Virus record (IMG/VR): IMGVR_UViG_3300022935_000069
Coordinates: 1-33,008 of that record
Strand: one strand, 5' to 3'
Length of the DNA stretch: 33,008 nucleotides
Origin: a virus
Each line of letters opens with the position of its first letter. Position 1 is the stretch's first letter. Made by a program: the position numbers and the translations under genes. Shown here piece after piece: positions 3,034-16,488 of the stretch. The notes under the pieces were generated by a model. That model did not search any database. It was given only the letters and a program-made list of their open reading frames with translations, and had not been told where the DNA came from.

Positions 3034-3062
3034 TTGACATATTGAAACAATTTCAGTATAAT
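3034..3062 (+). promoter_or_regulatory. Perfect sigma-70 consensus promoter
   Basis: TTGACA (3034-3039), exactly 17 nt, TATAAT (3057-3062). The predicted start near 3069 has no ATG next to it, unlike most promoters in the window. It overlaps the first codons of the small gene called at 3042 and could instead drive 3234 and downstream genes. Confidence 0.7.
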
Positions 3063-7915: not shown

Positions 7916-8212
7916 ATGCACGAAAAAGTTGAACAACCTGTCGGATCTTACACCGAGTTTGAAAAGCTCGCATGGGTAAGCACTAAAGCGATTCCTGAGA
8001 TTGGAAGCAAGCTGAATGTAAAAGTTAATGCAATTGGCGAATCAATCGTCCAAAAGTATTTCGTAGAGCATGGCTTTATTGGAATGCTTGTTCAGCCCAT
8101 TAATCCACCCGAATGGTATCGCAAGCAAAATGCATCCAAGACGGACTCCGCTCTTTACGATTGGGAGCCTTGTCATGTTTATCCTGCCGAAGTTGAGGAG
8201 CTAAGAGGATGA
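7916..8212 (+). CDS. Conserved phage hypothetical protein, probable SH3-like barrel
   Basis: 98 aa. The stretch IGSKLNVKVNAIGESIVQ followed by a YFVEHGFIGMLVQP run has the alternating strand pattern of a small beta-barrel, and WYRKQN...HVYPAEVEEL closes it. I have seen this arrangement in small phage proteins of unknown role. Its end overlaps the next gene as ATGA. Confidence 0.65.
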   Translation: MHEKVEQPVGSYTEFEKLAWVSTKAIPEIGSKLNVKVNAIGESIVQKYFVEHGFIGMLVQPINPPEWYRKQNASKTDSALYDWEPCHVYPAEVEELRG

Positions 8213-8454
8213 TCAAGTCTCTTGCCCCAAAACTTTCGATGTTCGCAACCGAACAAGAACTTCGTAACGAGTTAACCACAAAAGAATATGTTTATGTTAA
8301 ACTCGCTAAACTAGATGAACATATTACTGATCTTCTTCATATGACAGAAAAATGTAATGGAGAACTTAGCATGACTGCATCAAGTAAATACAATTACATC
8401 AAACAAATACAAGAAGACTTGTTGAGAGTAAATAGAAATAACCACACAAAATAA
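8209..8454 (+). CDS. Hypothetical helical protein
   Basis: 81 aa, helical with a probable coiled coil, unrecognised. It starts in an ATGA overlap with the previous gene and is probably translationally coupled. Confidence 0.6.
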   Translation: MIKSLAPKLSMFATEQELRNELTTKEYVYVKLAKLDEHITDLLHMTEKCNGELSMTASSKYNYIKQIQEDLLRVNRNNHTK

Positions 8455-8468
8455 ATTCAAAAAAACTC

Positions 8469-8497
8469 TTGACAAATAATCAAATATAGAGTATAAT
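8469..8497 (+). promoter_or_regulatory. Perfect sigma-70 consensus promoter of the ncRNA
   Basis: TTGACA (8469-8474), exactly 17 nt, TATAAT (8492-8497). It is a full consensus match; no protein gene follows for 370 nt. The expected start is near 8504. Confidence 0.85.
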
Positions 8498-8503
8498 AGA
8501 TAC

Positions 8504-8832
8504 ATAAATTTGAGAACAAAACTCAATCAAATAAAATAAATCGATCTTTAACATTTTAAACACTTTGGAAGCCTCGACGGAGTCTTCCTGTGGGTGACCC
8601 GAACAAGCCTGTCGTGAGCGGGCTAAGGTATGCAGATTCCCTGTGGCGGGGCGATAGAGTCCAATCGGATGAGTCGATGACAAATGCCAAGTCTAATTTG
8701 TAGTTCGAAGTAGGTAACATAGCAACTGATGTTCACGCCGAAAAGTTGGAGGTATACAGTAGTCCTTCCCCACACCATTTTCTTTCTTAATCATAGCTTA
8801 CCCATCCAAGCAAATGCTTGGGTGGGTTTTTT
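8504..8832 (+). ncRNA. Orphan structured non-coding RNA of about 330 nt
   Basis: This 414-nt gap between protein genes has a perfect consensus promoter on the left and a strong intrinsic terminator on the right, and it is visibly richer in G/C than its surroundings. No sizeable reading frame fits. Stems I can see include GGAAG-c-CTC / GAG-t-CTTCC closed by GACG (about 8568-8588), AGCC/GGCT (about 8607-8624), ATCG/CGAT with a 7-nt loop (near 8664-8678), CAAAT/ATTTG (near 8681-8700), ACTG/CAGT (near 8726-8760), and a possible long-range pairing of GTGGCGGGG with CCCCACAC. A boxA-like word (GATCTTTAACA) is at 8543-8553. I checked for tmRNA, RNase P and group I intron hallmarks and found no convincing match. 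Its identity is unknown. The 5' end is inferred from promoter geometry. Confidence 0.75.
8801..8832 (+). terminator. Rho-independent terminator of the ncRNA
   Basis: An 11-bp stem CCCATCCAAGC / GCTTGGGTGGG (one T-G pair) with loop AAAT is followed by six T. The next promoter begins at 8834, two bases later. Confidence 0.9.
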
Positions 8833-8833
8833 A

Positions 8834-8861
8834 TTGACTTCCTTCGAAAACCTGTCATACT
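8834..8861 (+). promoter_or_regulatory. Early leaderless-type promoter
   Basis: TTGACT (8834-8839), 16 nt, CATACT (8856-8861), 7 nt to the ATG at 8869. It sits directly behind the ncRNA terminator. Confidence 0.75.
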
Positions 8862-8868
8862 AGATATC

Positions 8869-9123
8869 ATGAAAACGCTAAAAGACATTCTTGCCAACTA
8901 CGGATACATTAACCAAGCTCAACTAGCTGAGATCAACGAACACTTTCCGCACATGAAAGTAGTAATCAAATGGGGTGGAATGCCTCGTGAACGAGTGCAT
9001 GCATGGAAAGCAATCGAACGCATCGAAAAGGTCGAGGCGGAGAACACCGACTATTGTCGAGAAGTATTTCTTTGTGCCCAAGATTGTCAAAATCTTCGCA
9101 CAGCACTCCACATTGCACAATAA
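8869..9123 (+). CDS. Hypothetical small protein
   Basis: 84 aa from ATG 8869, 7 nt after the promoter; an upstream in-frame TTG lies in the ncRNA terminator and is rejected. It contains a W-rich helical centre (WGGMPRERVHAWKAIERIEK) and two Cys near the end. Unrecognised. Confidence 0.65.
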   Translation: MKTLKDILANYGYINQAQLAEINEHFPHMKVVIKWGGMPRERVHAWKAIERIEKVEAENTDYCREVFLCAQDCQNLRTALHIAQ

Positions 9124-9141: not shown

Positions 9142-9720
9142 ATGATTAATCCTGCAGAAGTAACAAATTACAATCGAACACAATACGAACTAGAAGAATT
9201 TATTCTTTTTTGCATTAATGTAGCAGGAAAGAAAAGTTCAATCGAAGCACCCAAACTAGAAGTATTTATTCAAAGAGCAAAAGACATAACAAAAGAAGCA
9301 ACACCATTTAATTGCATTAGGAAATTGATTAAATTGGGCAGGCTTAATGAAATCATGCATTGGGCAAAGTTGAGTCCGTATGCTCAGCGATACAATTCAT
9401 ATTTTGATGTTGTTAAGATCAAGGATCTACGAGCAGTAACCCTGAACAGATTATTGAAGGTACCAGGCATAGGTCTCAAGACTGCAAGATTCTTCCTTTC
9501 GCATAGTCGCGAAGACTTCGACGAACCTATGCTTGACACGCACATCCTTAGGTTTCTTCGAGACCAAGGTTATGTTGATGCTCCCAAGAGTACTCCTTCT
9601 AACGAGAACACCTATCTTTATTTCGCGAACATCTTCAAAAACATTGCTCGTCAATTGGGCAAATCAGTTACAGATCTTGATCTTGAAATTTGGAAGGAAT
9701 ATTCGGGCACCACTGCATAA
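9142..9720 (+). CDS. HhH-GPD superfamily DNA glycosylase / AP lyase-like protein
   Basis: 192 aa. The motif VPGIGLKTARFFL (107-119) followed by LDTHILRF (131-138) is the canonical helix-hairpin-helix plus catalytic Asp of the endonuclease III and MutY superfamily. Lys113 aligns with the Schiff-base Lys of endonuclease III and Asp132 with its catalytic Asp, so a bifunctional glycosylase/lyase is plausible. The C-terminal iron-sulfur cysteines are missing. It is shorter than endonuclease III (about 210 aa) and is the second such protein in the window. The stop overlaps the next ATG (TAATG). The damaged base is not predictable. Confidence 0.7.
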   Translation: MINPAEVTNYNRTQYELEEFILFCINVAGKKSSIEAPKLEVFIQRAKDITKEATPFNCIRKLIKLGRLNEIMHWAKLSPYAQRYNSYFDVVKIKDLRAVTLNRLLKVPGIGLKTARFFLSHSREDFDEPMLDTHILRFLRDQGYVDAPKSTPSNENTYLYFANIFKNIARQLGKSVTDLDLEIWKEYSGTTA

Positions 9721-9794
9721 TGGAACTATCAATACTTCTTGCTGTGGCATTTATTATTGGCATCATTAAAGCATATTGCGAGCGCGACGATTGA
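9720..9794 (+). CDS. Micro single-pass membrane peptide (MELSILLAVAF family)
   Basis: 24 aa, one hydrophobic helix from residue 3 to 17, then a charged tail (KAYCERDD). The ATG overlaps the upstream stop as TAATG. It matches two peptides in the minus island (16420-16488 and 19109-19177), also placed directly behind a larger gene; this recurrence is the main evidence that it is translated. Confidence 0.6.
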   Translation: MELSILLAVAFIIGIIKAYCERDD

Positions 9795-9935
9795 TCCAAA
9801 TACAAAACACAAATAGCCAAATACTAAATAAAGAAATTTTTAATACTAAATAAGGCAAATATGGAGAGCAATACAGAATTATTGATTCAACTAGAATAAA
9901 AGAAAAGGTAATTGAAAAAATTATTTTGTGCAATC

Positions 9936-10012
9936 GGGGCCCCCCCTTAATTGAATAGGTCAACAAATTAGGTGGATATTAGCCTTGACTTTGGGCAGAA
10001 AATCTTCATAAT
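9936..10012 (+). promoter_or_regulatory. Palindrome-promoter module, copy 1
   Basis: G4C7 run at 9936-9946, then a spacer ending in atattagc, TTGACT (9985-9990), 16 nt, CATAAT (10007-10012), 6 nt to the ATG at 10019. The spacer end matches the copy at 13565. Confidence 0.7.
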
Positions 10013-10018
10013 GGAGTC

Positions 10019-10414
10019 ATGATTAAGACAAAGCCTGACGAAAAAAGGTACGAGATTAATTTCAACAAGCCCGTTTTTGTTTACAAGAATCTCCACAAAG
10101 ACTGTTGGAGCGTCAAACAAGATGGATTAGTCAAAGCTCACACCACAAGCCTTGCGATGCACAGTTGCACTTTTAAGGTAAGCGAAGCAGGAAGAAAGCG
10201 TGTGTTAAACGAGCAAAGAAAAAATGTTCACGCAGGAATCCAAGGTTACATTGAGGAGCAAGTTGGTAATTGGATTGATTCGCATCCTACTGCTCGACCT
10301 GTAACTTACAATCCGTACAAGTATGAGAATTTTGTTGACAAGGACACGGAACAAATGGTAGACTATGCTATTGCCGTGAGACTAGAACCTAAACAAGTAT
10401 TAGCAGTATTATGA
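10019..10414 (+). CDS. Conserved phage protein with VTYNPYKYENFV motif
   Basis: 131 aa. The blocks VYKNLHKDCWSVKQDG, AHTTSLAMHSCTFKVSEAG, RKNVHAGIQG and TYNPYKYENFV are a combination I know from small phage proteins of unknown function. The N-terminus is Met-Ile-Lys, as in many genes behind these modules. The end overlaps the next gene as ATGA. Confidence 0.75.
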   Translation: MIKTKPDEKRYEINFNKPVFVYKNLHKDCWSVKQDGLVKAHTTSLAMHSCTFKVSEAGRKRVLNEQRKNVHAGIQGYIEEQVGNWIDSHPTARPVTYNPYKYENFVDKDTEQMVDYAIAVRLEPKQVLAVL

Positions 10415-10608
10415 ATCAAAGAACAATAGACATCACCCCTACATGGTCAGCAATCATTCGTCCTATGATTGAGGTGCTGAAGAACCCAAAGGCAGATCCC
10501 TTCGGAAAGAAAGAGGTCGAAAAAGAATTGCTTAGACTTGCGAAGATCGTAGACGATCAAAACGAGAAAGCAAGAATGGTAGAACTTGACAAAAAGGCTA
10601 GATCATGA
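10411..10608 (+). CDS. Hypothetical small protein
   Basis: 65 aa, starting with MNQRTIDITPTWSAI and then a charged helix. It has ATGA overlaps at both ends, so it is the middle of a coupled three-gene operon. Confidence 0.65.
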   Translation: MNQRTIDITPTWSAIIRPMIEVLKNPKADPFGKKEVEKELLRLAKIVDDQNEKARMVELDKKARS

Positions 10609-10838
10609 CACAAGCACAAATTAGAGAAGAAATTCTGGGCATAGTTAAAAGAGAACTTGCATGGGCAGATCCAATGTCTAGGATATGTCTTGATCAGCAC
10701 AAAAGGCATCCCGAAAAGTTTCCGATTGGTTCAACTTTTGAATCAGCCGAAGAAGTTTTGGATGACATCATTTGTAGCTTGACATTGTTCCAAAAGGAGC
10801 TTAGAATTAAGTCATCTTTTCAATCAACTAACCTCTAA
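10605..10838 (+). CDS. Hypothetical small protein
   Basis: 77 aa, helical, unrecognised. It is coupled to the preceding gene by an ATGA overlap. Confidence 0.65.
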   Translation: MTQAQIREEILGIVKRELAWADPMSRICLDQHKRHPEKFPIGSTFESAEEVLDDIICSLTLFQKELRIKSSFQSTNL

Positions 10839-10851
10839 ACAAAGGAAAATT

Positions 10852-11271
10852 ATGGGACTCGACCAAAATGCTTATTCAGTCGTCCAAGGTGGGCGAAACG
10901 ATGGAGAAGAAGAACATCTTAGCGAATGGAGAAAACACAATCGCCTTCAAGGATGGATGCAACAGCTTTGGGAAGACAAGGGAAGACCGAATGCTCCTGA
11001 GTCATCAAGCCCAATGGGAGACTTTAATTGCATTCCGTTGGAACTCGATGAAGAAGACATTATTCGCCTAGAGCAAGACATTCTAGATTGCAATTTACCC
11101 GAAACACATGGCTTCTTCTTTGGAAGCGATTCTTACTCTTGGACAGATGAAAGCGAAGAACCCTTTCCCGAAGGCGACTATTGGTACAAGGAAACCGATT
11201 TGCAATTTGTCGAAGATGCCAAAAAGTGCCTCAAACAAGGTAAGAAAGTTTTTTACTCTTGTTGGTATTGA
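10852..11271 (+). CDS. Conserved MGLDQ-type phage protein
   Basis: 139 aa. The start MGLDQNAY, WRKHNRLQGWMQQLW, FNCIPLELDEEDI, LPETHGFFFG and the acidic end with YSCWY form a pattern that I associate with a phage/marine bacterial family of unknown function. An AAAGGA ribosome site precedes the ATG. It is promoter-distal in the 10019 operon. Confidence 0.75.
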   Translation: MGLDQNAYSVVQGGRNDGEEEHLSEWRKHNRLQGWMQQLWEDKGRPNAPESSSPMGDFNCIPLELDEEDIIRLEQDILDCNLPETHGFFFGSDSYSWTDESEEPFPEGDYWYKETDLQFVEDAKKCLKQGKKVFYSCWY

Positions 11272-11274
11272 GCC

Positions 11275-11302
11275 TTGACATTCAAACAGAACCTGCCATA
11301 CT
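11275..11302 (+). promoter_or_regulatory. Early leaderless-type promoter
   Basis: TTGACA (11275-11280), 16 nt, CATACT (11297-11302), 7 nt to the ATG at 11310. Confidence 0.75.
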
Positions 11303-11309
11303 TAACTAC

Positions 11310-11477
11310 ATGAAAGAATTAATGGAAGAAATCAAAACCCTTCAATCACGATTAAGAAATTGCGGTGGAGGAAAAATCGTAATCACTAGCGGAAAATTTG
11401 ACATCTCGCTTGGCAAAGAGCATGAGGAAGATGAGAGTGAGGATGTCGAAATGCTTCGTGCAATATTCAATGCTTAA
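11310..11477 (+). CDS. Hypothetical small protein
   Basis: 55 aa from ATG 11310; an in-frame TTG at 11259 lies before the promoter and is rejected. It has a charged helix, a GGG turn and an acidic tail. Unrecognised. Confidence 0.6.
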   Translation: MKELMEEIKTLQSRLRNCGGGKIVITSGKFDISLGKEHEEDESEDVEMLRAIFNA

Positions 11478-11478
11478 A

Positions 11479-11685
11479 ATGGAAAATCAAACATACATCG
11501 ATGCGGTTTGCGAAGGCAAGCCATTAGACAAACCTTCGTTCAATGCGGATCTTGAAGCATGGGAATTGTACTTTGAGGAGTCGGCGACTCCTTGGCATCC
11601 CTATGACGAAAGAGACTTGTTGAGCGTCTTTTTCAACTCTGAACAAGAGGCACTAGATGCCTACAACCACTACAATGCAAACTAA
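11479..11685 (+). CDS. Hypothetical small acidic protein
   Basis: 68 aa from ATG 11479 (ATG 11470 is an alternative). The motif VFFNSEQEALDAYNHYNA near the end resembles the SLQSAVDWAE segment of 7259 in style. It lies directly behind the preceding gene. Confidence 0.6.
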   Translation: MENQTYIDAVCEGKPLDKPSFNADLEAWELYFEESATPWHPYDERDLLSVFFNSEQEALDAYNHYNAN

Positions 11686-11687
11686 CA

Positions 11688-11849
11688 ATGAATACTAAGG
11701 TAGACAAACTCAATAAAAAAATTCGTAAAATTGGATTCGAGCTTGCAAGGGCGCAAGCCATGAACATCAAGGCAGAAGATTACTTGTCGAAAAAGATTGC
11801 TCACGATTTGCTCTTGAGCGAACTGTATTCGATAGAGAAAAAAGTTTAA
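11688..11849 (+). CDS. Hypothetical small basic helical protein
   Basis: 53 aa, helical, Lys-rich, ending SIEKKV. It starts 2 nt after the previous stop and ends 7 nt before the tRNA gene. Unrecognised. Confidence 0.55.
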   Translation: MNTKVDKLNKKIRKIGFELARAQAMNIKAEDYLSKKIAHDLLLSELYSIEKKV

Positions 11850-11856
11850 TTACATC

Positions 11857-11932
11857 GGACCCGTAGCTCAGCGGTTAGAGCAGGGCACTCATAATGCCTT
11901 GGTCCTCGGTTCGAATCCGAGCGGGTCCACCA
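11857..11932 (+). tRNA. tRNA-Ile2 (CAU), lysidine type
   Basis: A complete 76-nt cloverleaf: acceptor GGACCCG/CGGGTCC, D arm GCTC/GAGC, anticodon stem GGGCA/TGCCT with loop CTCATAA, T arm CTCGG/CCGAG, and encoded CCA. The anticodon is CAT. The D loop length and the TGCCTTGGTC variable region resemble tRNA-Ile2 of E. coli (minor isoleucine tRNA reading AUA after lysidine modification by host TilS) more than elongator tRNA-Met. This fits the frequent ATA codons here. Elongator Met remains the alternative. Confidence 0.9.
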
Positions 11933-13490: not shown

Positions 13491-13517
13491 AAGCCTCTCT
13501 TCGGAGAGGCTTTTTTT
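13491..13517 (+). terminator. Rho-independent terminator
   Basis: A 9-bp perfect stem AAGCCTCTC / GAGAGGCTT with a TTCG tetraloop is followed by seven T. It ends the DUF932 operon. Confidence 0.95.
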
Positions 13518-13564
13518 GCGAAAGGCTATTGACTTATCCTGCATTTTTTGTGACCGATCCGGGC

Positions 13565-13641
13565 GGGGGCCCCCCGCAGTACCATCGTATAAAAAATTAG
13601 TTGAATATTAGCCTTGACTTTAGTTCTTGATCTGCCATACT
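13565..13641 (+). promoter_or_regulatory. Palindrome-promoter module, copy 3
   Basis: G5C6 palindrome (13565-13575) between gaccgatccgggc and gcagtaccatcgt, an A-rich stretch with agttgaa, TTGACT (13614-13619), 16 nt, CATACT (13636-13641), 6 nt to the ATG at 13648. This is the closest plus-strand match to the minus-strand copies. Confidence 0.8.
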
Positions 13642-13647
13642 TAGACT

Positions 13648-13791
13648 ATGAATGCAAAAGAAAGAATGAAAGAATGGAAAAAGCTTCCGCCGAACACAAT
13701 TTCATGGGAGACTTTTAAAAGGTTGCTTGGACAATTCGGGCCGGAAAAAGGTATTGAAAAAGCAAAAAAGATGCTTGACAAAAAGGGCTAA
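13648..13791 (+). CDS. Hypothetical small basic protein
   Basis: 47 aa, Lys-rich, helical (LPPNTISWETFKRLLGQFG). Its last codons (MLDKKG) contain the -35 box of the next promoter. Unrecognised. Confidence 0.6.
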   Translation: MNAKERMKEWKKLPPNTISWETFKRLLGQFGPEKGIEKAKKMLDKKG

Positions 13792-13802
13792 TTCAACATA
13801 AT
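13775..13802 (+). promoter_or_regulatory. Early leaderless-type promoter
   Basis: TTGACA (13775-13780) inside the preceding gene, 16 nt, CATAAT (13797-13802), 7 nt to the ATG at 13810. Confidence 0.75.
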
Positions 13803-13809
13803 TAAAGAC

Positions 13810-16180: not shown

Positions 16181-16310
16181 AAAGCTAATCCAAAAAAATA
16201 ATTTTTAAAATAGGATCGAGCAAATAGAAATAGATGCACAAATAAATACATCAAATATTTTGTAGAATTGGTCATTGACTTATTGTACAATTTTATTGCA
16301 CAATCCTACT

Positions 16311-16324
16311 GGGGGGGCCCCCCC
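16311..16324. repeat. G7C7 palindrome, promoter-less module remnant
   Basis: A perfect 14-bp G7C7 palindrome between the converging gene sets. Read on the minus strand it keeps the flanks cggtcaac-side and agtaggat-gtgcaataaaatt, but the TTGACTTTTCGGGG promoter half is missing after about 20 bases. It has no downstream minus-strand gene. Confidence 0.8.
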
Positions 16325-16325
16325 G

Positions 16326-16424
16326 GCCCGCATCGGTCAACTTTTAAGTTGAAAAGTTTAGCCTAGGATCATGCAGTAGAATACTGCAAGCCAAGGCAAG
16401 AATAGGAGAATGTCCCAAGTCATG
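16326..16424. repeat. 99-bp exact repeat, copy 1
   Basis: Identical base for base to 20746-20844. It contains a micro-gene on the minus strand, a 7-bp inverted repeat AACTTTT/AAAAGTT, and the palindrome-proximal flank cccgcatcggtcaac. Confidence 0.95.
16358..16423 (-). CDS. Micro membrane peptide (MTWDILLFLPW), copy 1
   Basis: 21 aa, almost wholly hydrophobic with three aromatic/Pro positions (LFLPWLAVFYC). The ATG is in an ATGA overlap with the preceding micro-gene. The same peptide, identical in DNA, is encoded at 20778-20843 behind a different gene with the same ATGA overlap. Recurrence with coupling argues that it is translated. Confidence 0.55.
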   Translation of the reverse strand: MTWDILLFLPWLAVFYCMILG

Positions 16425-16488
16425 CTTCTAGGTATCCTTTAATTATTCCAATGAAGAAAGCCACGGCAAGAAGGATTGCAAACTCCAT
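16420..16488 (-). CDS. Micro single-pass membrane peptide (MEFAILLAVAF)
   Basis: 22 aa, one hydrophobic helix and a short charged end (KGYLEA). The ATG directly follows the stop of the 98-aa gene. Clear relatives are 9720-9794 and 19109-19177. Confidence 0.6.
   Translation of the reverse strand: MEFAILLAVAFFIGIIKGYLEA

Follow-up and report, generated by a model that had tools for sequence, protein, structure and literature searches.

What is the long gap between two small genes of this phage, and does the RNA that it could encode belong to a neighboring mRNA or stand as a gene of its own? In the 33,008-base IMG/VR record IMGVR_UViG_3300022935_000069, the whole of which we refer to as the window, 414 bases separate an 81-aa ORF (8209-8454) from an 84-aa ORF (8869-9123). 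The initial annotation described an orphan structured RNA here, with a dedicated promoter and terminator, in the only gap of more than 300 nt.

That this is the only such gap was not reproduced. A greedy choice of ORFs of at least 60 aa left seven gaps longer than 300 nt, and lowering the limit to 40 aa left one, located elsewhere (16181-16488), because spurious ORFs then overlay the RNA region. Other parts of the description held. The RNA body is enriched in G/C (51%, vs 38% for the window) and contains no plus-strand ORF of at least 50 aa, with three ORFs of 51-67 aa on its minus strand. ARAGORN and Rfam gave no tRNA or tmRNA match at 8469-8832, as had been claimed.

Identity and fold of the RNA

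We found that the plus strand at 8567-8778 matches the Rfam family RF01745, manA RNA, over the full model (1-192) with 64.4 bits (gathering score 55.2, E 2.2e-14), and on this sequence match we assign the segment to the manA class. An Rfam search had been proposed as the check on the orphan status, a hit to a known class being the outcome that would end it. Since RF01745 scored above its gathering threshold, the word "orphan" falls by that criterion; a model built from the relatives also finds cyanophage manA reciprocally. Weinberg et al. (2010; PMC2864571) presented manA RNA as a candidate cis-regulatory riboswitch and rated it as a certain RNA, as cis-regulatory "Y" (certain) and as a switch "y" (probable). 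The Rfam copy searched also types RF01745 as cis-regulatory, and PMC7779021 and PMC7657543 deal with manA RNA structure. Among open-licence PMC papers, we found no report of a manA ligand, no description of manA as a free-standing RNA and no boxA ahead of a phage RNA gene.

We collected relatives with the pattern GGTATACAGTARTCC, which gave 81 viral contig stretches (L002-L082), and ran RF01745 on 80 of the corresponding records, all but that of L082. The family exceeded its cut-off in 50 of the 80 records, with a single match each, and the scores fell into two groups: 22 loci at 157.6-186.7 bits, which we call cyanophage type, and 28 divergent loci at 70.0-89.4 bits. By its sequence, the window RNA belongs with the low-scoring divergent group. 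A second pattern, together with one scan that covered genomes of bacteria and archaea, added L083-L097, so that the divergent set comprised 44 loci (28, the window and 15), or 45 when L051, a truncated relative of the window, is counted. A more stringent 5' pattern gave no match. The divergent clade was absent from 50,697 isolate phage records in a body-only blastn search, which returned only matches of 20-32 bases (E up to 10), and the body of the relative L059 likewise matched over only 23-31 bases. The cyanophage type was present in 37 of these records. A kinship with Streptococcus and Enterococcus phages, suggested by blastn, was dropped since the A+T-rich promoter region alone had matched.

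To connect the two groups, we used R1, a covariance model built solely from the divergent clade (alignment A1). R1 gave 231 bits on the window, which is among its own source sequences. It recovered manA in all eight cyanophage-type loci tested, out of 22 in the group (L005, L010, L013, L018, L019, L033, L041 and L080), with E 1.6e-8 or better, and at nine of 10 isolate loci, missing that of S-CREM1. A single R1 copy per record was found in 28 of the 30 records searched, among them records of 180-206 kb.

The initial annotation had also pointed to several visible stems. Folding energy was ordinary both for the transcript (z -1.14, its stability matched by 12 of 100 shuffles) and for the RNA body (z 0.12, matched by 105 of 200); therefore, stems seen by eye are not evidence in themselves. 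The structure is demonstrated by covariation, not by stability, and it is on this ground that the fold stands. Alignment A1 holds 34 distinct divergent bodies (the 44 loci minus six duplicates and four cut copies) with a mean column identity of 85%. Standard pairs fill 98.3% of its 1422 cells, and both-sided changes occur in 18 of the 42 pairs (126 cells); none of 500 shuffles reached any of these values, although the relatedness of the aligned sequences inflates the counts. Slid versions of the structure pair at 41-51%, a comparison that favors the drawn structure because it was built from covarying columns of the same alignment.

All helices lie on the plus strand. Hairpin P1 (8567-8588) carries a GACG loop and shows both-sided changes in five of its seven pairs among the 34 relatives. 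The closing helix P0 joins UGUGGG (8589-8594) to CCCACA (8769-8774); its 6 bp are invariant in 34 of 34 and, for that reason, add no covariation. Hairpin P2 (AGCCUG/CGGGCU, 8606-8624) has both-sided changes in two of six pairs, and its loop CGUGA (8613-8617) forms a pseudoknot with UCACG (8733-8737) that is paired in 99.4% of cells and covaries at two pairs (CG 24/GC 9/UA 1 and GC 24/AU 10). This pseudoknot is missing from the Rfam structure line of RF01745; PMC2864571 places a questioned "pseudoknot?" in manA, which may be the same or a different one. The 3' hairpin (8748-8768) presents the conserved loop of the GGUAUACAGUARUCC block, with both-sided changes in two of five pairs and every cell paired. 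A tRNA-like 3' end, with CCA past the closing helix, was considered and dropped, as the ends of the relatives vary and CCA is not conserved.

The RNA resembles manA in its full-model sequence and fold, the GGUAUACAGUARUCC block, GUGAC, UAAGGU and the closing helix. It differs from RF01745 manA in forming a separate low-scoring clade, in the covarying P2-loop pseudoknot, and in having a boxA leader, its own terminator and a position outside an mRNA 5' UTR.

Transcription signals around the RNA

The promoter matches the full consensus (12/12), as initially stated: -35 TTGACA (8469-8474), a 17-nt spacer and -10 TATAAT (8492-8497), all on the plus strand, from which transcription is expected to start near 8504. 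When the leader was simulated 20000 times with a Markov model, such a 12/12 site arose in 8 cases, and the window has two of them, at 8469 and 3034; the second (3034-3062) is followed by an A+T-rich stretch of doubtful coding capacity. Complete leaders are available for 39 of the 45 loci, those of L022, L036, L051, L084, L086 and L089 being truncated. Of the 39 complete ones, 38 have a promoter of at least 10/12, with a spacer of 17 nt (16 in L088), and the promoter of L094 is weak (8/12).

Downstream of the promoter lies a leader hairpin, TTGAG-AACAAAA-CTCAA (8510-8526, plus strand), found as TTGAG/CTCAA or a variant in 34 of the 39 leaders and changed on both sides of the stem in L023 and L081. 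Among 25 distinct leaders, 12 (that of the window is not one of them) allow a pseudoknot between the loop of this hairpin and the segment ahead of boxA; the summed pairing score was 84, whereas 200 shuffles averaged 36 and never exceeded 62.

The leader then carries GATCTTTAACA (8543-8553, with the 15-mer reaching 8557, plus strand), which resembles boxA, the rRNA-type antitermination signal. A boxA-like motif lies between promoter and RNA in all 39 complete leaders, with 11 to 15 of 15 matches. Against the gamma-proteobacterial consensus GYTCTTTAANA (PMC5725501), the window motif differs at one position (10/11). Eleven of the 39 leaders contain it perfectly. The extended boxA matched at 15/15 in the window and in none of 20000 simulated leaders. 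In 18 of 39, boxA and the RNA are set apart by additional sequence that often looks like a hairpin by eye (boxA at least 90 nt before the closing helix), and a hairpin-like cassette upstream of the RNA is common to L087, L088, L093 and L119.

We also scanned with the leader only, using a pattern of hairpin plus A-rich stretch that includes neither boxA nor the RNA. Of the 31 viral stretches that it retrieved, 19 were known members of the set and 12 were new. All 12 new leaders had a promoter of at least 11/12 and a boxA of at least 13/15, and nine of these stretches had RF01745 over the cut-off. L119 and L124 are cut yet start with a manA-type RNA (R1: 149 bits for L124, no match in the L119 record). 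In L122 (leader match 9787-9818, minus strand), the same promoter, a pseudoknot-type leader and boxA precede a different stretch, about 400 nt long, GC-rich and structured in appearance, for which neither Rfam (over threshold) nor R1 gave a match; by eye, the gene after this RNA slot resembles the same downstream family.

At the other end, the claim of a strong intrinsic terminator was borne out: a 12-bp stem (8800-8827) with seven G-C pairs is followed by a T run (8800-8833 in all, plus strand). The stem is clear of the manA fold, and its sequence is not conserved among relatives. A permissive script, run without a shuffle control, flagged 40 of 45 loci as having a terminator; the calls look weak in L007, L045 and L097, and none was made in L034, L035, L050, L089 and L094. 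Two further elements were seen after the RNA: a second common sequence (GCAAATATGCGGAGG...) between RNA and terminator in L022, L084 and L096, perhaps a further RNA cassette, and a tRNA-like sequence with a CCA-like end directly after the RNA in L036, for which ARAGORN makes no call.

The next gene (84 aa, 8869-9123, plus strand), without a Pfam or PHROG match, has its own promoter, TTGACT-16-CATACT (8834-8861, plus strand), whose -10 ends 7 nt before the ATG. This gene occurs within 1.5 kb downstream in 31 of the 45 loci, and in 28 of these 31 (L038 being doubtful) a promoter with its -10 ending 6-7 nt before the ATG was found, vs 2.1 expected from shuffles. Its mRNA is therefore probably leaderless, the gene seems to be a separate, nearly leaderless transcription unit, and the RNA need not serve as its 5' UTR. 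Elsewhere in the window, at 13492-13809, a hairpin and T run (near 13495-13518) precede a site resembling a promoter and, at about 13649, a short ORF.

Taken together, promoters in 38 and boxA-like motifs in 39 of 39 complete leaders, with the covarying fold, uphold the initial view of a dedicated, independently transcribed, structured phage RNA.

Cyanophage relatives and boxA-led RNAs

In 15 of the 22 cyanophage-type loci, a promoter of at least 11/12 ends 20-32 nt before GGGAGTGAC. No boxA was found in this group, the best score being 10/15 (20 scored, two cut). A run of at least four T within 20 nt after the motif is present in 22 of 22 cyanophage-type and 32 of 44 divergent loci. Among eight cyanophage-type loci examined, five place the RNA 62-74 nt (from the conserved 3' block) before a gene for an ssDNA-binding-protein-like product and one places it 46 nt before transaldolase; such positions, just ahead of gp32-like or transaldolase genes, would be expected of a 5'-UTR element just as well.

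We read 10 isolate regions, nine chosen from the 37 records plus S-CREM1. The feature after manA was gp32, purL, transaldolase, carbamoyltransferase or a small ORF; in P-TIM68, the gene that follows is encoded on the other strand. In S-CREM1, manA lies inside a tRNA array, starting one base after tRNA-Leu and meeting tRNA-Asn at its 3' boundary; this array (9500-11800, L133) also holds the wcaG and abiF RNAs. The S-CREM1 authors list manA as cis-regulatory (PMC9964418). The wcaG RNA, which bears the same label, may also be a free RNA. Stable phage RNAs of unassigned role are known near tRNAs in the T4 tRNA cluster, and these resemble S-CREM1 manA in tRNA proximity. The tRNA array and the varied neighbors together suggest that the free-RNA reading may reach the whole family. 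Small hypothetical proteins are annotated over the manA RNA in P-HM2 (L134 956-1060), P-SSM4 (L136 967-1140) and S-SSM5 (L138 947-1153) and are probably false genes. Upstream in cyanophage P-RSM6 (L140:428-480), a glutamine-II riboswitch aptamer scored barely over its threshold (33.1 vs 33).

A boxA-like motif also precedes another stable RNA. A tmRNA gene was spotted in L035 because boxA directly precedes it, and a tmRNA pattern then gave three phage genes, L035:10941-11374 (minus), L131:4476-4886 (minus) and L132:593-1035 (plus), all confirmed by ARAGORN and RF00023 and with tag peptides predicted by ARAGORN. The motif ends 3-4 nt upstream of the tmRNA in all three. Two of the three records, L035 and L131, were covered by the R1 search, and both also hold a manA-type RNA. 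These genes thus resemble our locus in having boxA upstream of a stable RNA; unlike tmRNA, with its known tagging function and tRNA-like end, the window RNA has no tRNA or tmRNA match. The window also encodes a tRNA-Met (CAT anticodon, 11857-11932), directly after a small gene, and no boxA of at least 12/15 was found upstream of it.

In cellular genomes, the exact window boxA pattern occurred in 4 of 289, one of them the phage contig itself, with a 16S start in none of the four loci read, and an exact boxA followed by 16S occurred in 0 of 100. The 16S leaders of some sampled genomes carry GATCTTTGAAA, GTTCTTTGAAA or GCTCTTTGACA, and the window 15-mer preceded no rRNA operon sampled. The DNA ligase of the phage is closest to those of alphaproteobacteria phages (Caulobacter phage Cr30, 39.6%) and its PhoH to cyanophages (36.8%); the source is a large marine tailed phage.

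Proposed role and alternatives

We consider it likely that 8469-8833 forms a complete small-RNA gene, whose product would be a free-standing, trans-acting, stable manA RNA made under rRNA-like expression signals rather than a 5'-UTR switch. Host sigma-70 polymerase would initiate at the consensus promoter and produce a transcript of about 330 nt carrying the manA-class fold. The boxA of the nascent leader may recruit host NusB-S10, which could support efficient synthesis of this untranslated RNA and shield it from Rho, in the way known for rRNA and CRISPR arrays. The RNA would adopt its closed, pseudoknotted domain, transcription would stop at the gene's own terminator, and the stable product would act in trans, probably through a protein, ribosome or metabolite that contacts its near-invariant loops. 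Trans action appears most likely from the gene's own promoter and terminator and the separate promoter of the next gene, and the near-invariant loops across 210 nt favor binding of a protein, ribosome or small molecule over base-pairing.

Precedents exist for parts of this scheme. As in an rRNA operon leader, a strong promoter is followed by a boxA-like element and then by an untranslated structured RNA; here a 210-nt phage RNA is driven instead of rRNA, the motif is off at one position and Nus binding is putative. CRISPR arrays led by boxA offer a precedent among non-rRNA noncoding transcripts (PMC7862264, citing Stringer 2020). Our locus shares with them a boxA ahead of a non-coding transcript and differs in being a phage RNA gene with one short structured domain and no array. 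In rRNA, boxA acts chiefly on Rho-dependent termination, and an RNA of 330 nt is short to need it, which counts against a boxA role. The motif is read from sequence, and the absence of the window 15-mer ahead of the sampled rRNA operons weighs on the same side.

Among other explanations, a cis-acting riboswitch or attenuator, in which a ligand-bound fold would set formation of the terminator (8800-8827) and hence expression of the gene at 8869, fares best and is still unlikely. The order promoter-aptamer-terminator-gene, the near-invariant loops, the published rating (cis-regulatory "Y", switch "y", PMC2864571) and the cyanophage-type copies directly before gp32-like and transaldolase genes would all suit such a switch. 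The same 84-aa gene, kept downstream in 31 of 45 loci, could also be a cis link, and L007, with an ORF 28 nt past the RNA and an unconvincing terminator, counts against the free-RNA reading. However, the terminator stem lies outside the fold and is unconserved in sequence. In 28 of 31 loci, the downstream gene is served by a separate promoter that leaves it hardly any leader. Neighbors vary widely, one being on the opposite strand, and one copy sits in a tRNA array. When we asked whether the RNA lies in the 5' UTR of a gene that it controls, we thus found its own terminator, a separate downstream promoter and the S-CREM1 tRNA-array copy instead.

Less likely again is a processive antitermination element, in which boxA and the RNA would modify the polymerase so that it passes the terminator into downstream genes, as HK022 put and the EAR/epsC RNA do in their own systems. 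The boxA in every complete leader, the adjoining hairpin or pseudoknot, and a terminator followed mostly by co-directional genes could be read in this way, but the next gene has its own promoter and the RNA also occurs in a tRNA array. Further, each long operon would be expected to have such an element, whereas even records of 180-206 kb hold one copy.

The initial annotation took the strong promoter as a sign of high early expression of a regulatory or decoy RNA, which is a prediction. We give little credence to a host-factor decoy, by which an abundant RNA would use its boxA to titrate NusB-S10, or would titrate a different RNA-binding protein of the host, and slow rRNA synthesis. The universal boxA of the divergent clade's complete leaders, which resembles the printed consensus, is what a decoy would need; however, each transcript has a single boxA, the conserved 210-nt fold would be superfluous, and cyanophage-type members are without boxA (best 10/15). 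A base-pairing antisense small RNA is hardly plausible: the size and promoter-terminator anatomy fit, but fold and loops are conserved over the full length (mean column identity 85%), and perfect antisense complementarity to the window extends over at most 12 nt (E 0.52).

Returning to the free-standing RNA gene, the manA family itself is known, and the new result is the gene anatomy of promoter, boxA-like leader and terminator. More tentatively, and with somewhat less than even confidence, we suggest that the whole RF01745 family is mislabelled and represents a widespread phage stable RNA, in cyanophages and in large phages of other marine bacteria, that would be made like rRNA or tmRNA and act in trans as an RNP or ribozyme on the host expression machinery. 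The production signals would then be its own promoter, boxA or tRNA-array processing, and its own end. If manA is a free RNA gene, a search for a ligand and a regulated neighbor is the wrong test, and RNA levels, binding partners and trans complementation are the right ones. The boxA before phage manA-type RNA and tmRNA would show that large phages borrow the host rRNA antitermination signal for their stable RNAs.
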